From the NCBI RefSeq assembly GCF_009905215.1, contig NZ_CP047593.1, forward strand, positions 3,724,900 to 3,788,899: a stretch of 64,000 bases of DNA, read 5' to 3'. Position 1 is the first letter of the stretch, and every line of letters starts with the position of its first letter. Source of the stretch: Tichowtungia aerotolerans. GTDB taxonomy: Bacteria; Verrucomicrobiota; Kiritimatiellia; Kiritimatiellales; Tichowtungiaceae. A model generated the notes under the pieces. That model saw only the letters and a list, made by a program, of their open reading frames with translations, was not told the DNA's origin and searched no databases. Below, piece by piece: positions 2,752 to 54,836 of this stretch. Made by a program: the position numbers and the translations under genes.

Positions 2752-3339
2752 ATGAAATTCATTGCAGACATCAACCTGGATGCCCTGATCCCGCTCATCA
2801 TCGGGGCATTCTGGATTATCGCTCAGATTGCGGGAGCGGCAGCCAAAAAGAAAGGTGCCCCGCCCCGCCCCCGTGCAGCTGATCATGAAAACAATGAAGA
2901 TCCATTCGCCGAACTGATGCGCAGACTGGGCGGCGTGCAGGAATTCAAAATTCCGACACCGCCCGAGCCGATTGATCTGCCGGATGAGCATCCATGGAAA
3001 CCGGGCGATATTGAAGCGCTGCCGGACATGACCCGCAAGACTCCGGCGACAGCAAAAACAATCCAAAAAACTCCGCCCGTTACCGACGTCAAACCGATTG
3101 AAGTACCCGCCATGGATCTTCGCCCATCCATGCGATCCTTCAGAACCGCCATGCCGGCGATGAAACTGCCGGCGATGAGCCTGAGTGTCCAACGTTCGGA
3201 AAGAAGCATCGGAACAGTTCCAACCATTGGAAAAATCATCAATCCAGATGATCGCCGCACCTTACGCCGGGCCATGCTCGGTCACATCATTCTCGGCAAA
3301 CCGAGAGGACTGAACAGCTGGAGCGGCGGGAATCCATGA
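2752..3339 (+). CDS. Hypothetical FloA-associated protein
   Basis: A 195-residue protein with one N-terminal hydrophobic segment (about residues 10-30), then a lysine/proline-rich disordered middle and a short conserved-looking C-terminus (RRAMLGHIILGKPRGL). Similar small proteins with an alanine-rich LRxAxxxxxILGxPxxL tail often follow floA in planctomycetes and relatives, which is knowledge of locus pattern rather than of function. It starts 13 bases after floA. Codons near 3218-3232 lie inside one copy of the dispersed palindrome (encoding PTIGK). No enzymatic motif is visible. Confidence 0.65.
   Translation: MKFIADINLDALIPLIIGAFWIIAQIAGAAAKKKGAPPRPRAADHENNEDPFAELMRRLGGVQEFKIPTPPEPIDLPDEHPWKPGDIEALPDMTRKTPATAKTIQKTPPVTDVKPIEVPAMDLRPSMRSFRTAMPAMKLPAMSLSVQRSERSIGTVPTIGKIINPDDRRTLRRAMLGHIILGKPRGLNSWSGGNP
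3218..3232. repeat. Dispersed palindrome TTCCAA-N3-TTGGAA (copy 1)
   Basis: Exact copy with central triplet CCA, inside the coding sequence of the FloA-associated protein. Confidence 0.85.
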
Positions 3340-5890: not shown

Positions 5891-5905
5891 TTCCAAGGTT
5901 TGGAA
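5891..5905. repeat. Dispersed palindrome (copy 2)
   Basis: Exact TTCCAA-N3-TTGGAA copy (centre GGT) in the 51-bp divergent gap between the EIIA-CBS gene and the nitronate monooxygenase gene. It abuts the ATG at 5906. Confidence 0.85.
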
Positions 5906-7417
5906 ATGTATTTACGCTTTCTTCTGAAGGATTGTCATCGCTATTCCCAAACCAGGAGTCATACTGCCTGTCTTATTAAAACAAACCCACCAACCATTAT
6001 TCAGGGCGGAATGGGGGCCGGCATCTCAAACTGGCGTCTTGCACAGGCCGTTTCACAGACCGGTCAACTGGGCGTTGTCTCAGGAACAGCTCTCGGCGCA
6101 ATCATTTCTCGACGCCTTCAGGATGGCGACCCGGATGGACTCATTCGAGGAGCGCTTGAACACTTTCCGTTTCCCCGCATGGCACAACGAGTGATGGATA
6201 TCTTTTTCATCCCCGGCGGGAAACCGACAGCCACTCCATATCGTCCCTGCCTCATGCATGACCTGAGCGGCCGACGCGAACCGGATGAGCTCAGCATCGT
6301 CGGAAACTTTGTCGAAGTATTCCTCGCCAGACAGGGACACAACAACCCCGTCGGCATCAATTATCTCGAAAAGCTTCAACTGCCTCATATGGCATCAATC
6401 TACGGCGCACTGCTGGCCGGAGTCGCCGTCATTATTATGGGGGCTGGAATTCCCCTGGCCATTCCGAATGTCCTGTCCGCACTGACGCACCACGCAGAAG
6501 CAACCTATCCGGTTCACATTGAAGGTGCAGATGGAAAAACCGAAACCTTCAATATGGTTTTTGATCCTGCACAGTTCGCCGAAGACACTCCTCTACCACC
6601 CCTGCTTTCACGACCGGATTTTCTGCCGATAGTTTCATCCGAAACCCTGGCATCGCTTCTCCTGCGCAGAATCCCGGACGGCATTGACGGATTTATCGTC
6701 GAAAGCAATCTGGCCGGCGGACACAACGCTCCGCCGCGCGGAGCGGCAACGATCAGCAGCAAAGGCGAACCTGTTTACGGACCGCGCGACGATGCCAAAC
6801 TCTCAGCATTCCGAGACCTCGGGCTTCCCTTCTGGCTGGCCGGCTCCGTCGGCTCTCCCGACGGACTGAAAACGGCACTGCGCGAAGGAGCCTGCGGCAT
6901 TCAGGCGGGAACCGTTTTTGCACTCTGTACAGAATCCGGACTGCGCCCCGATATCCGACACCAGCTCATCCGCCTTGCACTCTCAGGGAAATCGCCAATC
7001 TTCACGGATCCTCTCGCATCACCGACCGGATTTCCGTTCAAAGTCGCAGAACTCGACGGAAGCCTGTCAGACGCCCGCAGTTATGATCTTCGCCAGCGCA
7101 TCTGCGACCTCGGCTTTCTGCGCCAGCCCTACCGTCGTGCCGATGGAAGTATCGGCTACCGCTGCCCGGCCGAACCATTCGCTTCCTATAAAGCCAAAGG
7201 AGGGAAAGAAGCAGACACCGTCGGACGAAAATGTCTCTGCAATGCACTCATCGCCAATGTCGGCATGCCGCAGCAGTTGCCCGACGGAACCGATGAGCTG
7301 TGCCTGATTACCATGGGGACGGACCTCGCCGGCATTGACCGGTTCTGCACAGACGACAATATCGACTTCTCAGCAGGCGATGTCGTTCGCACACTGCTTA
7401 AAACCGAAGATGCTTAG
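5906..7417 (+). CDS. Nitronate monooxygenase / 2-nitropropane dioxygenase family
   Basis: About 503 residues, an FMN-dependent TIM-barrel enzyme family that oxidises nitronates. The N-terminal PTIIQGGMGAGISNW motif and the internal ESNLAGGHNAPPRG and GSVGSPDGLKTAL segments (flavin phosphate and active-site regions) fit the family. The protein belongs to a longer subgroup with a conserved C-terminal extension containing GRKCLCNALIANVG. The start is uncertain: the ATG at 5906 abuts a palindrome copy and lacks a ribosome site, and the first 30 residues are not typical of the family. A later non-ATG start shortly before PTIIQGG, after AGGAG near 5956, is possible. No functional link with neighbours is evident. 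Confidence 0.85.
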   Translation: MYLRFLLKDCHRYSQTRSHTACLIKTNPPTIIQGGMGAGISNWRLAQAVSQTGQLGVVSGTALGAIISRRLQDGDPDGLIRGALEHFPFPRMAQRVMDIFFIPGGKPTATPYRPCLMHDLSGRREPDELSIVGNFVEVFLARQGHNNPVGINYLEKLQLPHMASIYGALLAGVAVIIMGAGIPLAIPNVLSALTHHAEATYPVHIEGADGKTETFNMVFDPAQFAEDTPLPPLLSRPDFLPIVSSETLASLLLRRIPDGIDGFIVESNLAGGHNAPPRGAATISSKGEPVYGPRDDAKLSAFRDLGLPFWLAGSVGSPDGLKTALREGACGIQAGTVFALCTESGLRPDIRHQLIRLALSGKSPIFTDPLASPTGFPFKVAELDGSLSDARSYDLRQRICDLGFLRQPYRRADGSIGYRCPAEPFASYKAKGGKEADTVGRKCLCNALIANVGMPQQLPDGTDELCLITMGTDLAGIDRFCTDDNIDFSAGDVVRTLLKTEDA

Positions 7418-7423
7418 GCCTAA

Positions 7424-7530
7424 AGACTTGCGGCTGGTTTCGTTCGCAGGTACCTTCTTCGGATGCAAAATCCAACCGCACAACCGCTTTCAGACGTATG
7501 CGCGGAAGCCGCGCGCACCGCAGGGCTCCA
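7424..7530 (+). pseudogene. Truncated copy of the 5' end of the inositol-monophosphatase gene
   Basis: Bases about 7424-7530 closely match 10912-11019, the upstream region and first 22 codons of the gene at 10952. Both contain GGTACCTTCTTCGGATGCAA with the ATG at equivalent positions (7463 and 10952), and both read MQNPT...DVC.EAARTAGL. After codon 22 the copy diverges and stops. Bases 7549-7572 also match 10897-10920 (21 of 24). The GH106 gene lies between these copies, so this is a relic of the duplication or insertion that placed it there. The rest of the gap to 7715 shows no further gene. Confidence 0.8.
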
Positions 7531-7715
7531 GACAGTCTGGAAATGCTGAAACCGTTTTTTCAGCAGATTTACAAAAACATACAGCTTATTATTTTTTCCT
7601 CCACGTTCCACGAAATCGGGAATTTGATCTGTTCTGTACGATTCAAATACGATAGCTTTTTACAAAGATTTCCTGCATCTGTATTGATTGAATATAAACT
7701 GGAGTAATAATATCA

Positions 7716-10700
7716 ATGAAACCCATTTCTCTGTCTTTCCTGGCAACCGTCCTTCTAATTCAGCTAGCAACAGGAGCTCTACCCGATCTAACAGAACAGG
7801 AATTTGCGGATCCCCCGAACAATGCCCGGCCTTTCACCTGGTGGCACTGGATGAACGGAAACGTGACAAAATACGGAATCACACAGGATCTGGAAGCCAT
7901 GAAACGGGTGGGAATCGGCGGGTTTCATCTCTTTAACATCGACGCAGGCATTCCCAGGGGACCCGTCGATTACTGGAGTCCGGAATGGTTCAGTCTTCTG
8001 AAATACGCGGGCGACGAGGCATCCCGATTGAATCTGGAAATGACCTTTCACAACTGCGCAGGCTGGCAGGCCGCCGGTGGTCCATGGATTACACCGGATA
8101 TGGGCCATCAGCAGGTGGTCTGGACCGAAAATACCGTCCGAAGGGGCCAACCCGTCATCCTACCTAAATTCACAACTCAACGGAACCCGCAGGTTCCGTT
8201 GGTTGAACTGATCAAAGGATTCGGACTGAATCCGGATGAGATTAAACAGGAAGTCCTGACAGATCGCTATTATCGCGATATCGATGTGCTGGCATTTCCG
8301 ACGCCAAAACGTTCTTCCGTCGATCAGGAGTTCCGACTCAACCGCTGGAAGGAAAAAGCCGGGTTCGTCTGCCATAGAGAACCCCCGGCTCAACAGGGAA
8401 AAACCGACTCCATCATTCAAAAAGATGATATTCTGATCCTTTCAGAGCGAATGAGTCCAGACGGCACACTGGACTGGACGCCACCTGACAACCAGGAATG
8501 GACGGTCATCCGCTTCGGGTACGCTCCGACCGGAAAACATATTCATCCCGCCCCCCCCGGAGCACTCGGATTTGAATTCGACAAAATGAGCCGGGCAGCG
8601 GCAACCCTTCATTTTCAGAAAGGGTTGCTGCCCATTATTAACCTGCTGAACGGTGACCGAAAACAACGGCTCAAGGCCGTCCTCGTCGACAGCTATGAAG
8701 CGAAAGAACTGAACTGGACGCCGCTCATGCCGCAGAATTTCCGGGAACTGCGCGGTTACGAACTGACACGCTACCTGCCGGCACTGACCGGTCGGGTCGT
8801 AAACAGCATTGATGAAACCGAACATTTTCTCTGGGACTGGCGCCGAACAATCTCTGATCTGATCGTACAGAACTTTTACGAATACATGACTGAACAGTGC
8901 CATGAATTCGACATTGAACTGGTCTCGGAAGCCAACGGCATGAACACCCAGTTCAATGCATTTGATGCGGCTTCTCCATTGGACATGCCGATGTGCGAAT
9001 TCTGGGCCGACCGCCCCGTTTGGGGGGCGCATAAACCCATCACCACGCTTCGAGACCTCCGGGGACTTCATTACGTCGGCGCCGAAGCATTTACTCATGG
9101 CGGAAGGTCGGATCTTTCGCCCTACCAAACGCATCCGGCCCTCTTTAAAATGCAGGGCGACGCGAATTTCGCTCTCGGTGTTAACAGGTTTATCTTTCAC
9201 ACATGGAGTCATCAGCCGTTTGACTGCAGTCTCGCCACACCGGTCATGAGTATGGGACCGTTCGGCACACACTTTAACCGTAACAATACATGGTTTGAAC
9301 AGTCCTCCGCCTGGTTGAAATACCTCGCCCGATGCCAGTACATGCTGCAGAAAGGACGCCTCTCCGCCGACGTCTGCTACTTCGTCGGCGATTCACCTAA
9401 AGACGGATTTAATATGGGGTTCTCGCGAACCGAATTCGAAAAAGGATCCCCTCGCGGCCAGTTCAACCGGGTTGGCCACAATCAGGTCATTCGCAGTTAT
9501 GATTACGACTTCCATACGGTGAACGGTCGGTTGCTTCAGGAAATGTATGCGGCGACGGACGGACGACTGACCCACCCCAACGGCATGAACTATCACTGCC
9601 TTGTCATCACGGACCCCACACGCAAAATATACCCAGAAACGCTTAAACATATTGAAAAGCTCGTCCGGAACGGCGTAACGCTCGTCGGCGACCGTCCAGC
9701 CCGGGAATGTTTCACGCTCGAAGAAAACAGCCGGAATTATGAAAAAACAGTCGAGCGGCTTTTTCCAAGCTCCGGAACTTCCATTGGAAAAGGAAACGTC
9801 TTCCCGGCACAAAAAGACCTCAGCTTTTTTCTCAAAGAACAGGGACTGCATCCCGACCTGGAAATGGAACCGAAGGACCGGATCAACGATGTTCTGTTCA
9901 TGCACCGGATTGTACAGGATGAAAACATGGAATTCTACTTCCTGACGAACCTGCGCGACCATCCTGTTTCCGGCAGTTTCACATTCCGGATCGAGGGAAA
10001 GATCCCGGAAATCTGGACCCCTGAAACCGGCATATCAGAGGATGCCCCGGCCTATAAAAACACAGCAGATGGAAGAACCCGCCTGAATCTGTCATTTAAA
10101 GAAAATGAATCCCTCTTTGTTGTATTCCGCAAAAATATTCCGCCGGAAATTCATCCGGTGCAATTTGACGCTGACAGCGCCATCATCAAAAAACTGAATG
10201 ACGGCCGCCTAATGATCAAAAACAGAACAGCGGAAACCGTCCGGATTGTACTCTCTTCCGGAAAAGAGCGAACCGTTTCGCTTTCCGACGCCCGTCCCCT
10301 TGAAGAACTGACCGAATGGTCCCTCAGCTTCCCGCCCGAATGGGGCGGCAGGCAGGACATCCGGCTCCCGGCGCTGACAGACTGGACTGCACTCGACCGC
10401 TTTGATGAAAAATATTTTTCAGGCACCGCAGTGTATAATACCGAACTGAATCTGCCTGACAGCTATCAGAAAGACCGCGAAGGCCTCCTGCTGGATCTCG
10501 GCGACGTGGAAGTCATCGCGGAAGTCTTTCTGAACGGAAAAGACCTGGGTGTTCTGTGGCACCGCCCGTTTGAAATCGACATTTCAGATGCCGTCAAGCC
10601 CGGCCGGAACCGGCTGCAGATTAAAATCACCAACACGTGGAACAACCGCTTATGCGGTGATGCAAAACTGCCGGAAGAAAACAAGCAGCAGACCATCCAG

Positions 10701-10856
10701 TGGCTCTATGGCAAAGCAGCCTCCCGTCCTGAAACCGCACGAAAATCATTCTCGATATTCAACGCCTACCCGAAAAACAGCGGCCAATTGATCCCGGCCG
10801 GCCTGCTGGGCCCGGTACATCTGATTCCGTACAACAAAACAATAATTGACCAGTAA
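7716..10856 (+). CDS. GH106-type alpha-L-rhamnosidase-like glycoside hydrolase
   Basis: A 1046-residue secreted protein with a signal peptide at residues 1-20. The N-terminal block FTWWHWMNGNVTKYGITQDL followed by EAMKRVGIGGFHLFN, and the later FHNCAGWQAAGGPWITPDMG, are characteristic of glycoside hydrolase family 106, whose known members remove alpha-L-rhamnose from plant and algal polysaccharides. The C-terminal 150 residues form a GH2-like sugar-binding jelly roll (DLGDVEVIAEVFLNGKDLGVL), also usual in this family. GGAG lies 12 bases before the ATG. The gene is flanked by direct copies of the 5' end of the neighbouring phosphatase gene, which points to insertion or duplication. Substrate is inferred from family only. 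Confidence 0.88.
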   Translation: MKPISLSFLATVLLIQLATGALPDLTEQEFADPPNNARPFTWWHWMNGNVTKYGITQDLEAMKRVGIGGFHLFNIDAGIPRGPVDYWSPEWFSLLKYAGDEASRLNLEMTFHNCAGWQAAGGPWITPDMGHQQVVWTENTVRRGQPVILPKFTTQRNPQVPLVELIKGFGLNPDEIKQEVLTDRYYRDIDVLAFPTPKRSSVDQEFRLNRWKEKAGFVCHREPPAQQGKTDSIIQKDDILILSERMSPDGTLDWTPPDNQEWTVIRFGYAPTGKHIHPAPPGALGFEFDKMSRAAATLHFQKGLLPIINLLNGDRKQRLKAVLVDSYEAKELNWTPLMPQNFRELRGYELTRYLPALTGRVVNSIDETEHFLWDWRRTISDLIVQNFYEYMTEQCHEFDIELVSEANGMNTQFNAFDAASPLDMPMCEFWADRPVWGAHKPITTLRDLRGLHYVGAEAFTHGGRSDLSPYQTHPALFKMQGDANFALGVNRFIFHTWSHQPFDCSLATPVMSMGPFGTHFNRNNTWFEQSSAWLKYLARCQYMLQKGRLSADVCYFVGDSPKDGFNMGFSRTEFEKGSPRGQFNRVGHNQVIRSYDYDFHTVNGRLLQEMYAATDGRLTHPNGMNYHCLVITDPTRKIYPETLKHIEKLVRNGVTLVGDRPARECFTLEENSRNYEKTVERLFPSSGTSIGKGNVFPAQKDLSFFLKEQGLHPDLEMEPKDRINDVLFMHRIVQDENMEFYFLTNLRDHPVSGSFTFRIEGKIPEIWTPETGISEDAPAYKNTADGRTRLNLSFKENESLFVVFRKNIPPEIHPVQFDADSAIIKKLNDGRLMIKNRTAETVRIVLSSGKERTVSLSDARPLEELTEWSLSFPPEWGGRQDIRLPALTDWTALDRFDEKYFSGTAVYNTELNLPDSYQKDREGLLLDLGDVEVIAEVFLNGKDLGVLWHRPFEIDISDAVKPGRNRLQIKITNTWNNRLCGDAKLPEENKQQTIQWLYGKAASRPETARKSFSIFNAYPKNSGQLIPAGLLGPVHLIPYNKTIIDQ

Positions 10857-10951
10857 ACCCCTCTTACCAAAAGATCGGCAGACGGTTATTCCTCTCAAAC
10901 CGGTTTTTCAGCAGACTTGCGAAAGTACCGGCGCACAGGTACCTTCTTCGG

Positions 10952-11731
10952 ATGCAAAACCCAACGACTCAACAGCTTTTAGACGTATGCATGGAAGCCG
11001 CGCGCACCGCAGGACTCCATGCACTCAAAAACATACACCGTCGCGAAGAAACGTTGGCGACCTTCGACCATGACATCAAGTTGGTGATGGATCGAGAATG
11101 CCAGACGATCGCGGAAGAAATCGTCCATTCACATTTTCCGGAACATGCAATTCTCGGCGAAGAAGGCGCCATCAGCAAAGAACACGAATTTGAGTGGATC
11201 ATCGACCCCATCGACGGCACGGCAAACTACACTCGCGGCATCCCGACGTGGTGCTGCTCCATTGCTGTGCGCCGCAACCAGACCATGCTGGCAGGCTGCG
11301 TCTACGTCCCCGATCTGGATGAGTGCTTTACCGCAACCTTGGACGGACCCGCCCTGCTCAATGGAGACCCCATCCAAGTCTCGAACATTCCAACCCTTGA
11401 AAAAGCCACCTTTTTCGGCGGATTCACCAAAGATATCGACCCGCGCGCAGTTCGCCTGGTCGCAGACCTGTCACCGCGCGTCAGCAAACTTCGCATCATC
11501 GGCTGTGCCGCCATCGACACCTGCCATGTCGCCTGCGGCCGCTCCGACGCCTACTACGAGCCAGGGCTCTACATCTGGGATGTTGCCGCGGCCGGGCTGA
11601 TCGCCGAACGCGCCGGCGCCGTCATCACCGAATGGCCGCGTAACGAAGAGCACGGATGCCGCTTTCTCTGTTCGACTCCCGCAATCCATGAAGACCTCAA
11701 ACAGATCATCGGAAACCACTTCGGCTCATGA
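10952..11731 (+). CDS. Inositol monophosphatase family phosphatase
   Basis: A 259-residue Mg2+-dependent phosphatase. The metal-binding motifs are intact: GEEG at 69-72, DPIDGT at 85-90 and the WDVAA block with Asp210. Length matches SuhB-type inositol monophosphatases. The DPIDGT-ANYTRGIPTW context also recalls HisN-type histidinol-phosphatases of the same superfamily, and a hisB gene lies 10 kb away, so histidinol phosphate is a possible substrate. No strong ribosome site precedes the ATG. The stop overlaps the start of the methyltransferase gene (ATGA), so the two are translationally coupled. Confidence 0.88.
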   Translation: MQNPTTQQLLDVCMEAARTAGLHALKNIHRREETLATFDHDIKLVMDRECQTIAEEIVHSHFPEHAILGEEGAISKEHEFEWIIDPIDGTANYTRGIPTWCCSIAVRRNQTMLAGCVYVPDLDECFTATLDGPALLNGDPIQVSNIPTLEKATFFGGFTKDIDPRAVRLVADLSPRVSKLRIIGCAAIDTCHVACGRSDAYYEPGLYIWDVAAAGLIAERAGAVITEWPRNEEHGCRFLCSTPAIHEDLKQIIGNHFGS

Positions 11732-53415: not shown

Positions 53416-54633
53416 CTATTTTACCGCTGTGCCGACAATCAGAATCTGGCCGGCATAGAAAGACTGTCCTTCCGGAAGATGTTTGACCGTCAAACAAACC
53501 GTATGCTCGCCGGGCGGCTGCGGCGGCAGATACCAGAATCGGGAAAACTGATACATTTTTTGCGTCTGACGGCGTTCCATGTTAACAATCTGCTTTCCGT
53601 CGATCACCGCCTCAACTTCTGCAACATCACCGTATGGAATATCACTGAACCCAACCGTCGTTCCGTTCCAATGCACCGTAATGGTTTCGCCGGGCCGCTC
53701 ACACTTTACCGCATCGCGCAACATGGACTTAGTACGCCCAAAATCATCTCTGTAAACCGAATCGGACATAATATTCACGTCCGTCCAGCCGGAACTGAGC
53801 TGCGCCTGATGAATCGGGAGCAATTCAGCAGTCTCCCAGCAGTTTTCATACAATGGCTTACCGACTGCGTGGACCATTCCGTCAGCATCCTCCTGCATTT
53901 TAAGCATGGATCGGGCAACAACCTTACAGTAAAGATTGTGTCCTTCATCGAGTGGATGCGCACCGTCTTTCGTGAACAATATTTTCCCGGCCCCAGGCTC
54001 TTCACCCTTAAAAACCAGTTTCCCGGCTTGTTCGAGTTTCGCAATCTCGACCCCAAGATCAATGCTTGGAATTCCATACTGGTTGGCAACCCTCTCCAGA
54101 ATTTCTCCAAACCCGGTGAGCCTGCCGTCCTGTACCGTTTTTAACCTCGGCAAATTAATCGTATAAACAAAACAAATGTCGATCTGAGGGTTGCTTCGCC
54201 AGATCTGTCGCACAACCCCTTCAGATGACTCCCGCTCAAATCCGCCGCCGCCGTTTACCCGACACTCCAGAAAAACCAGGTCGGGATTCTGCGAGAGCAC
54301 ATCTTCCTCCAGTCGACAGGCGGAGAAATCGGATCCCGTCCCCGAAACCGCCACATTGATTTCGACAAACTCAACCTGTGGATATTGCTGTCTGAACCAC
54401 TCCATGGTTTTAGGCCGCCAACCGGAAGCCGCCGTAATGCTCCCGCCCAAATAAGCAATCCGAACAGGACTCCCCTGATTTATTTTTTGAAAAAAATTCG
54501 GCAGGCCGTCTCTTTTGCGGAATTCCTCAGCAACAGTCGGATCGTTATTCTCAGCTCCACATGCAAGTCCCTCCGCAAAAAAGAGGAAAACACATATTAC
54601 GTTCTGTATTTTTATACTCCAAAATCTTTTCAT
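53416..54633 (-). CDS. Secreted SGNH/GDSL hydrolase (paralog)
   Basis: About 405 residues from the ATG at 54633 (MKRFWSIKIQNVICVFLFF signal), which fits better than an upstream extension to 54666. The SGNH blocks are IAYLGGSITAASGW, AVSGTGSD, ECRVNGGGG (the ND of block III is altered) and the GAHPLDEGH with catalytic Asp/His. A C-terminal beta domain follows. Its first 30 codons lie in one copy of a 149-bp tandem duplication. Paralogous to the next gene in the operon. Confidence 0.8.
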   Translation of the reverse strand: MKRFWSIKIQNVICVFLFFAEGLACGAENNDPTVAEEFRKRDGLPNFFQKINQGSPVRIAYLGGSITAASGWRPKTMEWFRQQYPQVEFVEINVAVSGTGSDFSACRLEEDVLSQNPDLVFLECRVNGGGGFERESSEGVVRQIWRSNPQIDICFVYTINLPRLKTVQDGRLTGFGEILERVANQYGIPSIDLGVEIAKLEQAGKLVFKGEEPGAGKILFTKDGAHPLDEGHNLYCKVVARSMLKMQEDADGMVHAVGKPLYENCWETAELLPIHQAQLSSGWTDVNIMSDSVYRDDFGRTKSMLRDAVKCERPGETITVHWNGTTVGFSDIPYGDVAEVEAVIDGKQIVNMERRQTQKMYQFSRFWYLPPQPPGEHTVCLTVKHLPEGQSFYAGQILIVGTAVK

Positions 54634-54688
54634 ATCACAATCCTTCGTCTGTTTTACGGGCAGCAAGTTTCACCTTCACTTCGTGCAC
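54541..54688. repeat. 149-bp tandem duplication, copy 1
   Basis: Covers the 5' end of the SGNH gene and its upstream bases. Matches 54690-54836 with few substitutions and one deleted T. Each copy ends with sequence from the 3' end of the transporter gene. Confidence 0.9.
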
Positions 54689-54689
54689 G

Positions 54690-54836
54690 ATCGTTATTCT
54701 CAGCTCCACATGTAAGTCCCTCCGCAAAAAAGAGGAAAACACATATTACATTCTGTATTTTATACCCCAAAGTCTTTTCTCATCACAATCCTTCGTCTGT
54801 TTTACGGGCAGCAAGTTTCACCTTCACTTCATGCAC
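54690..54836. repeat. 149-bp tandem duplication, copy 2
   Basis: Adjoins copy 1 and contains the transporter stop codon (54783-54785) plus a second, silent copy of the SGNH 5' end. The doubled unit therefore spans a former gene junction. Confidence 0.9.

Follow-up and report, generated by a model that had tools for sequence, protein, structure and literature searches.

A possible two-piece recombination scar around a rhamnosidase-family gene upstream of an inositol-monophosphatase gene in Tichowtungia aerotolerans

Described systems that come closest to the locus analysed here include homology-facilitated illegitimate recombination (HFIR), small variable chromosome segments and certain insertion sequences. 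HFIR couples homologous recombination at one end with illegitimate recombination at the other (PMC3240628). Differences of a few kilobases between relatives, non-mobile and situated at one place, have been reported with illegitimate recombination as the proposed cause (PMC2884548). The present locus also shows a non-mobile difference of a few kilobases at one place; the cited study, however, concerns strains within a species, whereas here species of a genus are compared and the repeats are decayed. The insertion sequences IS1549 and IS1634 make long target repeats of variable length, 8-514 bp (PMC2266710), and here too the insert has direct repeats on its flanks with a length in the range of tens to hundreds of bases.

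The window is the whole stretch of DNA analysed, 64,000 nt (G000:C1:3724900-3788899), and it comes from a genome consisting of a single contig of 3.88 Mb. Within it a gene of the GH106 alpha-L-rhamnosidase family is placed between a gene of the nitronate monooxygenase family (NMO) and one of the inositol-monophosphatase family (IMP). The features are as follows.

5936..7417, + strand: NMO, nitronate monooxygenase family (Pfam PF03060, E=1.5e-13)
7428..7456, + strand: promoter-like TTGCGG-N17-TACCTT, six bases 5' of the ATG of the truncated IMP copy (pattern scan of the window)
7447..7530, + strand: A1, truncated IMP start reaching from the -10 box as far as codon 23 (89% identity with 10936-11019)
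7463..7549, + strand: leftover frame of 28 codons and a stop (translation)
7528..7540, strand not assigned: small palindrome CCAGACAGTCTGG at the A1/B1 junction, sole match of its own pattern in the window
7546..7576, + strand: B1, copy of the block 5' of IMP, resembling the IMP upstream region of the relative G003
7568..7595, + strand: sigma-70-like TTTACA-16-TATTTT, candidate GH106 promoter (9/12 consensus matches)
7716..10856, + strand: GH106 alpha-L-rhamnosidase-family gene, 1046 aa, full length (PF17132, E=1.2e-178)
10894..10924, + strand: B2, block 5' of IMP (sequence comparison)
10917..10945, + strand: promoter-like TTGCGA-N17-TACCTT 5' of intact IMP (pattern scan; comparison with relatives)
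10936..11019, + strand: A2, matching start of the intact IMP (sequence comparison)
10952..11731, + strand: IMP, inositol-monophosphatase-family gene, 259 aa, intact (PF00459, E=1.4e-45)

The NMO start codon is uncertain, the mechanical open reading frame beginning at 5900, and 45 nt separate NMO from the A1 start. The intact IMP scores 156.4 bits against the PF00459 profile (cut-off 27), and relatives in the genus carry orthologues of it.

The original prediction held that the upstream region and first codons of IMP are repeated at 7424-7530. Self-comparison of the window reveals a direct repeat of 84 nt, 7447-7530 and 10936-11019, with 89.3% identity (E=1.3e-24) and a score reached in none of 300 dinucleotide shuffles. 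The repeat is therefore real, but the match does not run cleanly from 7424. Between 7424 and 7446 the two copies have in common AGACTTGCG, which contains the -35-like hexamer, and the 13-nt spacers that follow are unrelated (3/13 matches, gapped p about 0.45-0.5). The A1 spacer is nearest to that of the relative G010 (8/13, gapped p=0.006). A second predicted match, of 24 bp (7549-7572 and 10897-10920), is also real and measures 31 nt, 7546-7576 and 10894-10924; B1 and B2 are identical at 26 of 31 positions (84%), a score found in 0/300 shuffles. Its core, AAACCGNTTTTTCAGCAGA, occurs without mismatch only at B1 and B2 in the 3.88-Mb genome, and at two more places with two mismatches.

GH106 does lie between the repeats, as predicted, its reading frame being confirmed between A1/B1 and B2/A2, and the 31-nt B block is the repeat that brackets it most tightly. 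The B block is 3' of the IMP piece at the left and 5' of the IMP piece at the right. The elements run A1-B1-GH106-B2-A2 with a common orientation, and because the blocks are nested and not collinear, a single plain duplication does not explain the repeats. A search for further IMP remnants in 7577-7715 gave nothing above shuffles (score 8, with 296/300 as good; strict score 16, with 251/300).

Thirteen relatives make up the genus set, and the IMP start with some upstream DNA is readable in 11 of them (from codon 4 in G001); G002, whose IMP is truncated at a contig end, and G011, with a distant match only, were left out. GH106 is found beside IMP in none of the 11, and hence an occurrence at the same place without the duplicated segment was not observed among them. 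Homologues of GH106 in the genus are confined to G009 and G012, on contigs other than those that bear IMP. G009 has 37 GH106-like matched segments among the rows listed, and 41 matches in the count per genome, on several contigs (L055, L057, L060 and others), far above the rest of the genus. NMO is present in three of the 13 relatives, each time directly 5' of IMP and with no GH106 between, at gaps of 74 nt in G006, 51 nt in G008 and 46 nt in G013. A second IMP start (residues 1-28) was not found in the relatives by protein search; the same search of the window's own genome detected only A1 (residues 1-28, 64%). DNA self-comparison of ten genus loci, L039-L048, a set that does not include L149 of G006, showed no repeat of the A type.

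The site is an interval of variable gene content just 5' of the IMP, MT and gyrase genes. Between p195 and IMP there are nhaD and PTS genes in G003, and other genes in G005, G010 and G013, and the interval has little or no gene content in G004 and G007 and in two order-level relatives, G024 and G028; in some relatives the visible upstream DNA is short (407 bases in G004) and there only the nearest neighbour was judged.

G003 is the sister of the window genome (support 0.999 from IMP, MT and gyrB). It has neither NMO nor GH106, and its order is PTS gene, palindrome, B-like block and IMP. The part adjacent to the PTS gene aligns with the window as far as the palindrome before NMO. Left of the -35 hexamer, A2 matches G003 at 19/26 positions and B1 at 17/26, each reached in 0/5000 shuffles. 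With the promoter-adjacent GCAGAC left out, and five registers allowed, A2 matches at 13/20 (p=0.0015) and B1 at 12/20 (p=0.0038). For the DNA left of A1 the agreement with G003 is 11/26 (p=0.037).

These comparisons bear on how the repeats were formed. In one explanation, about 126 bp from B to IMP codon 23 underwent head-to-tail copying, possibly in two rounds, before GH106 landed inside the array and removed the middle unit. The A1/B1 join sets codon 23 against B, as a tandem joint would, and a short tandem duplication is known in this genome, at 54540-54836 of the window (54540-54688/54689-54836, 149 nt, 94.6% identical). A recent copy should, however, keep the spacer between the -35 and -10 boxes, and the A1 and A2 spacers are unrelated; nor is there a B block left of A1. 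A tandem origin is therefore doubtful, if possible.

Another explanation is a single insertion with target duplication, whereby GH106 DNA entered at a staggered break, or by means of an element with long duplications such as IS1549 and IS1634, and 84 nt of IMP were doubled. The left copy on NMO and the right copy on the rest of IMP have the expected geometry. Next to the 84 nt over which the flanks agree at 89%, the spacer is unrelated, and the B block differs as well. Among the listed + strand open reading frames of at least 90 aa at 7656-10951, where GH106 is the sole one, there is no transposase, as an insertion sequence or transposon would carry, and no integrase gene, as an integrative element would; minus-strand frames in this interval overlap GH106, and the Pfam run covered + strand frames. 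In addition, the right end of the insert holds the second IMP promoter and an upstream block like that of G003, which is unexpected for a foreign insert. A single insertion of this type is thus unlikely.

The reading preferred here, on which the balance is about even, is that the locus is a recombination scar and that GH106, and NMO together with the IMP start, were added as two pieces to the variable interval. Two additions are preferred because promoter halves that differ would not be expected from a plain duplication, nor one like that of G003 from a foreign insert. The older state was probably as seen in G003, with the PTS gene, palindrome, B block, promoter and IMP in that order in the ancestor of the window. 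GH106 would have gone into the B block, now present on either side of it as the 31-nt direct repeat. NMO would have arrived with the first IMP codons from a locus of the NMO-IMP type, leaving A1 joined to B1 at about codon 23. IMP homology would have guided the exchange at one side, with an illegitimate join closing the other. The right-hand IMP would then have stayed intact with its own promoter while A1 decayed.

Such a course resembles HFIR: on one side the incoming piece has sequence in common with the resident IMP, and no such match is seen where codon 23 joins B1. The pattern of homology at one join and none at the other is consistent with HFIR. It differs in that the region looks like the product of at least two events and not one, and no donor was found in the scans: among 387 genomes of the phylum, 25 have GH106 matches at E<=1e-100, the best 42% identical; a scan of genome contigs gave 18 loci, the best at 37%; and a scan of genome contigs for an IMP donor found nothing. 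These scans also count against the two-addition reading itself.

The prediction that GH106 was acquired by duplication-associated recombination stands in part. The GH106-free sites of the relatives, including those in G006, G008 and G013 where NMO leads straight into IMP, agree with acquisition. The wording that makes the A repeat the mark of the arrival of GH106 is not supported, as B brackets the gene more tightly, and since A1 is joined to NMO, which is absent altogether from G003, A1 may have come with NMO. Against the two-addition reading, NMO could have been present in the ancestor, with repeated loss in G003 and other relatives. The likeness to G003 comes from 20-30 nt of noncoding sequence. 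Outside the promoter, the likeness of the DNA left of A1 to the NMO-type relatives is weak, at most 11/26. The A1 coding letters are shared with A2 and not with the NMO-bearing relatives; the donor must then have been a very near relative, unless A1 derives from the resident gene. The identities of B1 and B2 (84%) and of A1 and A2 (89%) do not fix the order of events.

The coding parts of A1 and A2 are 86% identical, above the identity of either to any of nine relatives. When 66 coding bases are compared, each of the nine lies nearer to A2 than to A1. Codons 1-23 contain 10 sites where the two copies differ, and at every one the A2 base is shared by more of 10 relatives than the A1 base, with codons 6, 8, 10 and 14 as the clearest cases. 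A1 therefore carries an excess of changes, and most likely it is decaying and yields no useful product. A 20-residue peptide had been proposed from the remnant; the frame at 7463-7549 translates instead to 28 residues and a stop, and a working peptide is unlikely because A1 differs from the relatives at conserved codons.

The left copy might have been kept for use, its promoter and 28-codon leader frame driving or tuning GH106. The promoter-like TTGCGG-N17-TACCTT is intact at A1, no terminator-like site was found in 7380-7740, and at spacer positions -20 and -19 A1 agrees with more relatives than A2 (7 v 3; 5 v 0). The coding part, however, decays at conserved codons, and the 11 differing promoter positions favour neither copy (five for A1, five for A2 and one tie, with relatives that have an extra base before the ATG or no promoter counted in place and not realigned). 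GH106 also has a promoter-like match of its own at 7568-7595, and no Rfam family reached the gathering threshold in 7300-11100. Retention for use appears improbable on this evidence. The putative GH106 promoter is a consensus match only, one of two sigma-70-like matches in the region, where shuffles average 0.5.

The layout TTGCG-N(17 or so)-TA...T shortly 5' of the ATG is found in six of 10 relatives checked, G003, G006, G008, G009, G010 and G013, and was not seen in G004, G005, G007 and G012. Six or seven bases separate the second hexamer from the ATG, so that the layout looks like the promoter of a leaderless message.

A further reading makes the DNA upstream of IMP a repeatable landing site. 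Different species would exchange cargo of one gene at a time there (PTS genes, NMO, a hydrolase-like gene, GH106), with the conserved IMP promoter and start as the homology, and every exchange would leave behind an extra IMP start able to drive the newcomer from its promoter. This is highly improbable; if true, it would offer a testable route for single-gene exchange in the genus. The case does document how a lone carbohydrate-enzyme gene reached a conserved neighbourhood in which no mobile element is visible. It also illustrates how a tidy flanking duplication can hide two events, as a worked example and not a new mechanism.

At the protein level, GH106 matches PF17132 with 596.5 bits (cut-off 29) over profile positions 2-739 of 743, and is predicted from its sequence to belong to the alpha-L-rhamnosidase family. 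It matches the solved proteins 6q2f, 5mqm and 5mwk (PDB) and shares the full PF17132 match with these GH106 rhamnosidases, of which 5mqm and 5mwk are BT_0986. In BT_0986, E461, D458, S459 and E538 are the catalytic acid and calcium residues, and E593 is the general base (PMC6828813). D458, S459, E461 and E538 align with D325, S326, E328 and E405 of the window protein, by numbering counted by hand from the alignment, and the catalytic acid and calcium residues are thus present. In this alignment a glycine of the window protein stands in the column of E593, and E457 (in GAEAFT) is a few columns off. There are six GH106 matches genome-wide, and besides the window gene one other extends over the full profile.

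Codon use of 7716-10856 was compared with that of 12 neighbours, a check suggested with the original prediction. GH106 has a GC content of 0.525, GC3 of 0.595 and a codon score of -1.057, inside the range of the neighbours (-1.274 to -0.872). Codon use thus gives no support for a recent foreign origin and was rejected as a sign of recent transfer.

The genome was also scanned for similar repeats with a mechanical filter: direct pairs with a length of 50-500 nt and an identity of 75% or more, separated by 300-16000 nt, free of a paralogue flag and present in at most three copies. The sample, 1.264 Mb, consisted of the window plus 60 stretches of 20 kb, and seven pairs passed once paralogue-flagged rows and one 5-copy pair had been dropped. 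Three related genomes, sampled at 0.4 Mb each, gave none in G023 (rows with at least four copies dropped), seven in G024 and two in G053, at least one of these two being possibly undetected paralogues, for nine pairs in 1.2 Mb. A recurrent mechanism in this genome was therefore rejected. Since similar repeats are not commoner here than in the three related genomes, the scar is not special; it is real but ordinary.

Several other repeats were noted. In L136, a 132-nt direct repeat (3499-3630/6029-6160, 99%) surrounds a 2.4-kb stretch with a Y1_Tnp transposase gene, and the right copy overlaps the end of a 369-aa open reading frame with no Pfam match. The genome has six Y1_Tnp matches, and the link suggested by L136 is not general: the stretches at 996554 (L114), 932310 (L162), 2062699 (L139) and 3354228-3354586 (L174) gave no pair that passed the filter. 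In L131, a 442-nt direct repeat (2382-2822/5539-5980, 94%) comprises the end of an 828-aa open reading frame, metE-like by eye, and part of a methyltransferase-like one. In L141 the 3' end of a GH3 gene is repeated over 104 nt (2860-2963/11112-11215, 86%) at a distance of 8.1 kb. Longer direct repeats in the window, 27344-28722/28793-30180 (74%) and 46942-47621/47971-48650 (72%), are probably neighbouring paralogues.

The palindrome TTCCAANNNTTGGAA is interspersed in the window, at 3218, 5891, 12649, 22370, 25864, 43188, 47425, 52498 and 62335, which makes nine occurrences in 64 kb where shuffles average 0.04. Similar palindromes are found 5' of IMP in L039, L048 and L050.
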